Shown in pieces: positions 5,062-29,969 of a stretch of 48,192 bases of DNA (its first letter is position 1; each line of letters begins with the position of its first letter). Under the pieces are notes generated by a model. It had not been told where the DNA came from, made no database searches, and saw only the letters and a program-made list of their open reading frames with translations. Source of the stretch: a virus; the IMG/VR virus record IMGVR_UViG_3300031659_002244, positions 1 through 48,192 of that record. One strand, given 5' to 3'. The position numbers and the translations under genes were made by a program.

Positions 5062-5136
5062 TGGAGCGGGAGGTGGGGTACGATCCCACGACCTTCTGTT
5101 TGGCAAACAGATGCGCTACCACTGCGCTACTCCCGC
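5062..5136 (-). tRNA. tRNA-Gly (GCC)
   Basis: The cloverleaf is complete: acceptor GCGGGAG/CTCCCGC, D-arm GCGC/GCGC, anticodon stem TCTGT/ACAGA with loop TTGCCAA (anticodon GCC), T-stem GTGGG/CCCAC, and encoded CCA. The T-loop reads ATCGTAC rather than the usual TTCGAAT-type sequence, so the universally conserved T54-A58 pair is A-T instead. It starts 2 nt downstream of the tmRNA gene on the same strand. Confidence 0.93.
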
Positions 5137-5138
5137 TA

Positions 5139-5390
5139 ATAAGTAGCAGTTTTTCTGTTTCGAGGAAAACTGCCAAACCCAAGCCCTACTTAAGCGGCAA
5201 TAGCTAAATCGTAATCATTAGCGTTTATCATTTTGAATGATTGATAACCGAGCCATCATTCTTCTCGGTGCTGTCCGTATACCTTCCAATTGCAATCGAA
5301 ACCGGCTATCCCCCGTAAGTGGAGGATGGGGGAATCGAACCCCCGTCTTACAACATTCCGTTATACAGATTATACAGCAATCTTCGACAG
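5139..5390 (-). ncRNA. ssrA: Circularly permuted (two-piece) tmRNA, ssrA
   Basis: The gene order on the - strand is the permuted one: acceptor piece first, coding piece second. The T-arm at 5328-5344 (GGGGG, TTCGATT, CCCCC) is followed by 3' acceptor strand ATCCTCC (5321-5327) and discriminator A (5320). After only 5 nt, the 5' acceptor strand GGGGGAT (5308-5314) begins; the two strands pair over 7 bp with one G-U. GGTTTCGA, typical of the tmRNA D-like region, follows. A P2-like helix joins the pieces: TTGCAAT (5289-5295) with 5349-5356, and TATACGG (5275-5281) with CTGTATA (5362-5368). The resume frame 5190-5222 encodes ANDYDLAIAA then TAA, a classic degradation tag. A terminal helix/hairpin lies at 5139-5193. 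CCA is not encoded. The 5' end of the acceptor piece is approximate. Confidence 0.93.
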
Positions 5391-5462
5391 TTCATATAAT
5401 ACAACTGCCAAAGCCAAAACTGCTACTAAAAATGCAGATATCTCTACCCAATGTTCATTCAT
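5370..5462 (-). CDS. 30-residue single-pass membrane peptide
   Basis: ATG at 5462 lies 1 nt after the stop of the dNMP kinase gene, with AGGTG upstream. The frame encodes a 30-residue peptide with one membrane helix (FLVAVLALAVVLYEL) and stops at 5370-5372, next to the tmRNA acceptor piece. Small membrane peptides of this kind recur across the window. Function unknown; the frame could be chance, but the hydrophobic pattern and tight spacing argue for a gene. Confidence 0.5.
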   Translation of the reverse strand: MNEHWVEISAFLVAVLALAVVLYELSKIAV

Positions 5463-24637: not shown

Positions 24638-25708
24638 TCATTCTCTATAAAAATTACCGAACCTTGTATTTAAAACATCATCCCAATCTACATCTTCCTG
24701 TTTCACATATCCTTTCTGTGGTAGTTTCTTATTAACGTATAACTCAACCATCGATATTAATCCAATAGCTGTAGTATATTCTATAGCAGAAAGATGTCTA
24801 CCGTTTATAGTCTTTGGTCTAAACACCTTATAATATGTATACAAATCCTCTTCGACATCTCCCGCAGAAACAAATATGATAACTTCATCCTTCCTAGTCT
24901 TTGGAATACAAGTTTTGAATATATCTGTTAAACTACTTTGGTCTAACTGTAAATCATTAAAAAGGAAATCAACATAATCGTGATGACCTATCCGCATAAG
25001 TGTTTTATAATCTGCTGTTATAAAATTATTCCAAGTTTCTTTAATGGTTTTTGCAAGAGTTCCAATACCACCTGATGTATTGAATGCCTCATATTCTTTA
25101 CCATCAATAGTAATCTTTTCGTATCCTGTCAATGCTTTTTCTGTTACATTTTGTCCACTACGAATAACTTGACAGTCTCCGAGATACGCATTGACAAGAC
25201 CTTCCGAACTCCAAGATGTATTATATCTTAGTTTGTTAGAAGCGTTCTGTGACAAAGTACCAACACGAATTTTTAATTTATGGGGGTTATCTAATTGCTT
25301 TAGAAGATGGAATGCTACAATAGAAGACATTCCTGGTGCAAGACCACAATGTGGCATGGTGAATGGCATACCTTGTTGAAATGATGCAAGGTATATATCA
25401 AGACCATCATCCTCTGATAAGTCAAAATATGCAACACCTGCTGATTGACAGGCTTTATAAAGATTTATATTTTCTGTGTATGGAAGGGCATTAATGATAA
25501 GAGTTTTACCATTAACAAAATCATCGAAATGGACGGGAGGTTGTTCTGATAACTGAACATAATCATCTTCAGCGATATACCATTTCTTTTCAATCTTATC
25601 AGCGATGGACACCTTATAATTAAAGTCCGTGCTTACAAGAAGTTGATAGATAGCAGACCCAATGTTTCCAGCTCCAACTATTCCAATATGTATATCTTTA
25701 TTATTCAT
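24638..25708 (-). CDS. Saccharopine dehydrogenase-like oxidoreductase
   Basis: This 356-residue protein begins with a Rossmann motif (IGIVGAGNIGSAIYQLL), has TLIINALPYTENINLYKACQSAGVAYFDLSED-type sequence of the saccharopine dehydrogenase NAD domain, and MPHCGLAPGMSSI, which marks saccharopine/carboxynorspermidine dehydrogenases. Substrate (lysine, polyamine or another amino acid route) cannot be read from sequence. The ATG is exactly at the predicted transcription start of the promoter at 25715-25750, so its mRNA may be leaderless. It is the first gene of the primase/thyX/nrdJ unit. Confidence 0.85.
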   Translation of the reverse strand: MNNKDIHIGIVGAGNIGSAIYQLLVSTDFNYKVSIADKIEKKWYIAEDDYVQLSEQPPVHFDDFVNGKTLIINALPYTENINLYKACQSAGVAYFDLSEDDGLDIYLASFQQGMPFTMPHCGLAPGMSSIVAFHLLKQLDNPHKLKIRVGTLSQNASNKLRYNTSWSSEGLVNAYLGDCQVIRSGQNVTEKALTGYEKITIDGKEYEAFNTSGGIGTLAKTIKETWNNFITADYKTLMRIGHHDYVDFLFNDLQLDQSSLTDIFKTCIPKTRKDEVIIFVSAGDVEEDLYTYYKVFRPKTINGRHLSAIEYTTAIGLISMVELYVNKKLPQKGYVKQEDVDWDDVLNTRFGNFYRE

Positions 25709-29400: not shown

Positions 29401-29667
29401 TCATTTCTCCTCTGTTAAAAAAACTTTAGTGTCTTTTGTTTTATTTGAACTATTTTCTTTTTTGATTGGTGTAGGTGCTTTCTTTACTTCTTTATTGGAA
29501 ATAGTTTTTACGTTTCCATATGCATCAAAATCAAATTCAACCTCTCTATCATTTTCAGGCTCACCATTAGTAGAATTCACGACAGTTAGATTAAAATTAT
29601 ATATATTTCCTTCACACAAAATCTTACCAATACCATTACTGTATTTTGATACCTTTCCAGTTTTCAT
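29401..29667 (-). CDS. Cold-shock-domain-like small protein
   Basis: This 88-residue protein has a GKVSKYSNGIGKI start, then strands and VEFDFDAYGNVKTI. This fits an OB-fold of the cold-shock type (GxVKxxxxxxGFGFI), but the RNP aromatic motifs are weak. The C-terminus is Lys/Thr-rich and disordered. It lies directly beside the 23S rRNA-like element, whose RNA it could in principle bind. Confidence 0.5.
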   Translation of the reverse strand: MKTGKVSKYSNGIGKILCEGNIYNFNLTVVNSTNGEPENDREVEFDFDAYGNVKTISNKEVKKAPTPIKKENSSNKTKDTKVFLTEEK

Positions 29668-29692
29668 AGTATTCCTTTCAAATAAATATTGC

Positions 29693-29766
29693 CACTAACA
29701 AGTCCTTGTCGGGTAAGTTCCGTCCCACACGAATGGCGTAGTTTAAGAATTATCCACCTGTTAGTG
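29693..29766 (+). ncRNA. 23S rRNA domain IV-like element framed by an inverted repeat
   Basis: 29703-29740 matches the universally conserved bacterial 23S rRNA segment around E. coli helix 71 (TCCTTGTCGGGTAAGTTCCG then CACGAATGGCGTA) at 35 of 38 positions by my recollection of the E. coli sequence; the differences are at 29723, 29726 and 29727. CACTAACA (29693-29700) and TGTTAGTG (29759-29766) enclose it as a perfect 8-bp stem. On the + strand a late-promoter-like AATAAATA (29681-29688) precedes the stem by about 5 nt and a T-rich stretch follows it. On the - strand, the direction of the flanking genes, the transcript would be antisense to host 23S rRNA. Which strand is used is unknown. Confidence 0.7.
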
Positions 29767-29777
29767 ACAATAATTAA

Positions 29778-29969
29778 TTATTTATTTTTGTTATTGTGTA
29801 CGTTAAGTGCTAACCAATTCATAATAGGCCAGATTTTACCCAGAATAGGTAACTTCTCAGCATATTCATCTTTCAATGCCATAGTCAGTGCGTTTGCAAT
29901 AACTACAACTGAACAGGCAGTTCCCCACCATACTTGACTTGAACCCCATGCTACCATTAATGTTTCCAT
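29778..29969 (-). CDS. Small membrane protein, possible holin
   Basis: This 63-residue protein has a hydrophobic N-terminal helix (VWWGTACSVVVIANALTMAL), a charged middle (KDEYAEKLP) and a second weak helix, ending NNKNK. Size, helix layout and charged tail would suit a holin. AAGGAG precedes the ATG. The holin call is an inference. Confidence 0.5.
   Translation of the reverse strand: METLMVAWGSSQVWWGTACSVVVIANALTMALKDEYAEKLPILGKIWPIMNWLALNVHNNKNK

Follow-up and report, generated by a model that had tools for sequence, protein, structure and literature searches.

Why does a viral genome carry, in the gap between two small genes, a short piece that reads as bacterial 23S ribosomal RNA, and which of its two strands is put to use? 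The locus lies in the window, i.e. the whole 48,192-nt stretch of DNA analyzed here (positions 1 to 48,192 of IMG/VR record IMGVR_UViG_3300031659_002244). T4-type replication genes are present in this genome (DNA polymerase, UvsX-like recombinase and DnaB-like helicase), and relatives of a cytidyltransferase-like protein encoded beside the element occur in T4-like phages infecting marine Synechococcus; the host of the element is a marine T4-like phage. Elsewhere in the window, a tRNA-Gly gene adjoins a tmRNA gene that also matches the permuted tmRNA model (5065-5430, minus strand), and the start of an ORF at 24638-25708 (minus strand) resembles, by eye only, a saccharopine-dehydrogenase-type NAD-binding enzyme. 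Both ORFs flanking the element are located on the minus strand, and no PHROG was found for either. The locus is organized as follows, in the order of minus-strand transcription.

29778..29969, minus strand: upstream ORF of 63 aa, a conserved small protein, stopping 7 nt ahead of the element
29689..29770, minus strand: whole hairpin element of 82 nt, fold z-score of -3.98 with 0/200 shuffles as good, kept in four haplotypes
29673..29678, minus strand: AAAGGA, from its sequence the probable ribosome-binding site of the 88-aa ORF, retained in relatives
29401..29667, minus strand: downstream ORF of 88 aa, taken from the ORF list

The ribosomal likeness itself was examined by BLAST comparison of the window with rrsB/rrlB. 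Positions 29703-29740 correspond to 23S 1940-1977 of E. coli, with 35 of 38 bases identical and an E-value of 4.6e-8, while the runner-up rRNA match in the window, a 16-mer, has an E-value of 0.04; the first-pass annotation, which had recognized this segment and judged it far beyond chance, was therefore right. The three mismatches are 1960 A>T, 1963 T>C and 1964 G>A. When read on the minus strand, they separate two blocks that are fully complementary to 23S.

29703..29722, minus strand: anti-23S block facing 23S 1940-1959 (3' strand of H70 plus H71), 20/20 complementary
29723..29727, minus strand: spacer facing 23S 1960-1964, with the mismatches at 1960, 1963 and 1964, which breaks the H71-like self-hairpin
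29728..29740, minus strand: anti-23S block facing 23S 1965-1977, 13/13 complementary

These 20 + 13 bases are found on the strand of the flanking genes and of the conserved fold, and the computed duplex of the element with 23S amounts to -83.5 kcal/mol. The helix 71 stem is broken in the window element by a U1946.U1960 mismatch, and the base corresponding to 23S U1939 is a G. Among about 85,000 species genomes, the CCGTC form that carries the 1960 mismatch was found in only 3 contigs, all of them Chloroflexi 23S genes. This form is so rare in bacterial 23S that the mismatch does not represent ordinary host variation, and a copy of host 23S was rejected on the same ground. Contamination by rRNA was rejected as well, since the match is limited to 38 nt, lies between ORFs and is conserved in the clade despite diverging flanks. 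The H70-H71 part of 23S is an intron hotspot; a homing-endonuclease or intron site was nevertheless set aside, as it would explain neither the strand bias nor the hairpin.

The predicted fold distinguishes the two strands. RNA of the minus strand has a folding z-score of -3.98, none of 200 shuffles being as stable, versus -0.81 for the + strand. The 8-bp inverted repeat CACTAACA/TGTTAGTG described in the first-pass annotation is indeed present, and on the minus strand the stem extends to 15 pairs. The components of this structure are listed below.

29756..29770, minus strand: 5' arm of the basal stem, 15 pairs with 29689-29703; every cell is paired in the four haplotypes, with one C-G/U-G site
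29745..29755, minus strand: segment GGAUAAUUCU, partly pairing with the anti-H71 block; most variable sites are here
29725..29741, minus strand: apical hairpin CUACGC-CAUUC-GUGUGG, in which two G-U pairs of the minus strand correspond to C.A on the + strand
29689..29703, minus strand: 3' arm of the basal stem, from the fold and the haplotype comparison

The apical hairpin is completed by the deviations from 23S at 1963-1964 together with the base beside 1977. Across the four haplotypes (the window, L149, L150 and L153), the minus-strand structure is 99% paired, versus 85% for its + strand mirror. Three variable sites change from C-G to U-G on the minus strand and become C.A mismatches when mirrored, so that variants preserving a wobble pair occur on the minus strand only; no double-sided compensatory change was found among the four haplotypes. 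The signals reported earlier for the + strand were reconsidered in the same material. The late-promoter-like box AATAAATA does exist in the window but is absent from L149, L150 and L153, i.e. three of the four haplotypes, and a TATAAATA-like T4-type late promoter is consequently not conserved upstream of the element on that strand. The T-rich run is also real; it is the complement of the last codons of the upstream ORF (AAA AAT AAA TAA) and is likewise found in relatives devoid of the element. Neither strand has an intrinsic terminator at the window element, as judged by a GC-rich stem with a T run behind it. The fold, the wobble changes, the unconserved + strand box and the origin of the T run in the ORF end indicate that the minus strand provides the working RNA, which is thus antisense to 23S. 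As read from sequence and predicted fold, the element is an RNA hairpin between two cistrons that is antisense to helix 71 of 23S.

The first-pass annotation had given precedence to a + strand product, and a small RNA of that strand mimicking 23S H71 in order to titrate a factor of modification or assembly such as RlmD or RlmI is quite unlikely. It would account for the 35/38 identity to a region that covers the 1962 site and the neighborhood of U1939, and two other families are sense-stranded with the H71 stem largely retained. In the window, however, + strand folding is unremarkable, the H71 stem is broken at U1960, U1939 is replaced by G, the promoter-like box is unconserved, the T run belongs to an ORF end, and the orientation of genes and terminators is opposite. 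An antisense RNA directed against host 23S, the reading which had been mentioned last, is favored instead by the folding scores, by the minus-only wobble and by the strand of the flanking genes.

Degradation in close relatives had been proposed as the mark of a chance capture. Relatives were retrieved via the 63-aa protein, and seven more contigs of the clade (L148, L149, L150-152, L153 and L155) retain the element. Among the four haplotypes, the 82-nt element differs at 2-4 positions, one of which is in the rRNA-like part, while 20-50% of the four-fold degenerate sites of the adjacent ORF differ; the element is far more conserved than adjacent synonymous sites. Four other relatives (L156-L159) display an unrelated, plain GC-rich hairpin at the same place, which identifies it as an intercistronic hairpin slot of the message, occupied here by the element. 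This substitution would suit a plain intercistronic hairpin that affects mRNA stability or causes partial termination and whose resemblance to rRNA is functionless, deriving, for example, from a captured scrap of 23S. Such a plain hairpin is very unlikely, given that the rRNA-like portion ranks with the best-conserved portions of the element and that the same 23S stretch recurs, with a strand preference, in unrelated phages.

This recurrence was analyzed with short words of the 23S sequence. The 19-mer CCTTGTCGGGTAAGTTCCG is found in 13 viral contigs, one of which has a long 23S gene, most of the others being short pieces in unrelated viruses. The H71 16-mer TTGTCGGGTAAGTTCC occurs in 79 viral contigs versus 12 for the reversed string; all 12 control matches fall within ORFs, whereas TTGTCGGGTAAGTTCC is present in at least 10 unrelated noncoding families, their independence being judged by eye. 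These noncoding families include the clade of the window, L010, L048/L070 with the related L069, L034 and kin, L052, L053, L096, L045, L002, P2-like prophages, Jilinvirus and kin (Arya, KA2-1, ECO1230-10, PT1 and Bas97) and Guernseyvirinae (Hafnia TS33 and Pantoea AH01, with L089 and L090 alike). The neighboring 23S stretch CGGTCCTAAGGTAGCGAA yields L020, L021 and L022/L023, and a diverged version of the element is carried by Sextaecvirus-type phages. In several families, the stretch forms part of a GGAACUUA-CCCGACAA-UGAGUUUCC hairpin, whose loop CCCGACAA owes its conservation to the way the search was built. Matches of the 16-mer within ORFs are nearly all antisense; such a bias may follow from codon choice (GTYPT) and these matches were therefore excluded from the evidence. 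A control 19-mer from the 530 loop of 16S returned 3 matches, one real 16S and two in ORFs, and no fragments. The plasmid search returned apparently whole 23S genes among the matches listed. Complete or incomplete 23S genes, which probably stem from host DNA, were also observed in MZ092003.1 (82209-85113) and in several OR84/OR85 GenBank phage records. A distinct case is L020:3436-3476, where 40 of 41 bases of 23S H70-H71 are found, antisense, within a 344-aa phage ORF.

The gene strand is antisense to 23S in about 13 of the 15 families. In five of them (Guernseyvirinae, Jilinvirus, L034, L052 and L096), the stretch is followed on the antisense strand by an intrinsic terminator no more than about 60 nt away, and the sense strand has almost no intrinsic terminators near the stretch. 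Bases 1959-1961 are broken in all antisense families; left unbroken, they would let the antisense RNA fold on itself like H71. In L048 and L069, a separate hairpin stands between two antisense blocks matching 1936/1940-1958 and 1961-1971/1973. The exceptions, P2-like prophages (L001/L005/L012) and L002, are those sense-stranded families that largely retain the H71 stem and the H71 3' strand, and they count against the antisense reading. In the P2-like prophages, sense H70-H71 of 23S belongs to a long leader (L001:10200-10700, L005:10390-10900 and L012:1-620), whose hairpin could mask a ribosome-binding site; a small lysine-rich ORF (MPKKSKK...) is also present.

A second ribosomal stretch was noticed near some of these elements. 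In Jilinvirus L026, Guernseyvirinae L031 and L045, the anti-H71 stretch is accompanied by AGGAGGTGAT(CC), which is complementary to the 16S 3' end and lies either 28 nt behind that stretch or about 210 nt ahead of it; in L026 and L031 no start codon closely follows AGGAGGTGAT(CC). RNases of the MazF-mt3 type are dual-site toxins cutting 23S H70 and the 16S 3' end, and the presence of both stretches in several elements would fit a bait for a toxin of this kind. This is extremely improbable: a bait requires the sense strand while most families transcribe the complement, and UCCUU is missing in several families.

The position of the element in the message suggests a further possibility, the main rival of the mechanism proposed below, namely a cis-acting tether: once a ribosome has terminated on the upstream ORF, its 50S subunit would be retained on the message by the antisense stretch, which would aid restart on the next ORF. 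In the window and in L022/L023 the element comes after a stop codon and ahead of the start of the next ORF, it begins about 5 nt or less from the stop codon in L021, L029, L052 and L053, and the slot is that of an intercistronic hairpin in the relatives. In the five families with a nearby terminator, on the other hand, the downstream ORF would not be served by that transcript, and we regard such a role as unlikely. Of the ideas already described, the closest is that of the calicivirus TURBS (termination upstream ribosomal binding site), which pairs with 18S rRNA and drives reinitiation (PMC2793014, PMC4090194). Both are stretches of a viral message complementary to rRNA near a stop codon, but the TURBS addresses the eukaryotic small subunit, while the element belongs to a bacterial virus, would address large-subunit rRNA and, in other families, often lies beside a terminator.

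Other known systems share single traits with the element. Bacterial 3'UTR-derived and antisense small RNAs likewise combine a hairpin with an antisense stretch, and the position just before a terminator in other families recalls them; those known target messages, and none was found aimed at 23S rRNA. In Shine-Dalgarno/anti-SD pairing, a phage message also pairs with rRNA, and some related elements add a complement of the 16S 3' end; the subunit and helix are nevertheless different, and no start codon follows the element closely. That RNAs can act by antisense pairing is already known. No Rfam family matches the element at its gathering cut-off: RF02541 (LSU_rRNA_bacteria) shares the H70-H71 sequence, but the element is only a 38-nt piece of it on the opposite strand and scores 8.9 bits against a cut-off of 50. 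Open-access papers contained no description of a phage RNA complementary to 23S rRNA, and a phage element aimed at 23S is therefore without precedent in open-access text and Rfam.

The mechanism that we propose as the likeliest, and to which we give an even chance, is that the antisense RNA base-pairs with host 23S, meeting 50S precursors or free 50S subunits and hindering their maturation or joining. The weakly held inner pairs of the hairpin would open, and the antisense strands would then invade H70-H71 while this region is exposed, in 50S precursors or free 50S subunits. H70-H71 belongs to the surface where the two subunits meet and acquires its fold late in the assembly of the 50S, and H71 is part of an intersubunit bridge, so that an RNA paired there should interfere with late 50S maturation or with the joining of subunits. 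Antisense identity, strand, conservation and recurrence are read directly from the genomes; pairing in the cell and its effect are what we infer. Against pairing with 23S, H70-H71 is folded in mature ribosomes, which makes access uncertain, and the plain GC hairpin in the same slot of four relatives makes a purely cis role possible.

Phage RNAs that copy or complement rRNA form a wider picture than the H71 element alone. The 23S H94 16-mer, tried as a second control, revealed sense hairpins of its own in phages, and uniqueness of H71 is therefore not claimed. The H94 hairpin GGAACGTCGTGAGACAGTnCC is noncoding and sense in several phage groups (L119:7300, L120:5878, L124:278, L133:5162, L121:1460, L135:5950 and L136:3925) and is found directly ahead of a ribosome-binding site and start codon in L119/L129/L134. 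Short sense copies of the 23S L11-binding (GTPase-centre) hairpin, with a varying stem and a constant loop, were observed near 1501-1535 in L141-L147, where they lie between genes or within tRNA arrays of large phages (GAP32, XacN1, Aeromonas 4_4572, Milchi, pf16, UNO-G1W1 and CBB). In pf16 and UNO-G1W1, the H69-loop-like GACTATAACC is located downstream of this copy.

The versions of the element in unrelated phages suggest repeated evolution of RNAs pairing with host ribosomes. It is possible, though doubtful, that they belong to a convergent class of rRNA-targeting phage RNAs, in which antisense invaders of H70-H71, some also pairing with the 16S 3' end, would stop ribosome assembly or subunit joining, beside sense copies of ribosomal centres such as the L11-binding hairpin and H94. 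Cultured coliphages of the Jilinvirus group (e.g. HeidiAbel_Bas97) carry the element, which makes it testable in E. coli K-12. If pairing with 23S is true, the element would provide a compact, sequence-defined means to perturb 50S maturation, its target would be too conserved for easy mutation by the host, and phages would attack or use host ribosomes by RNA as well as by proteins.
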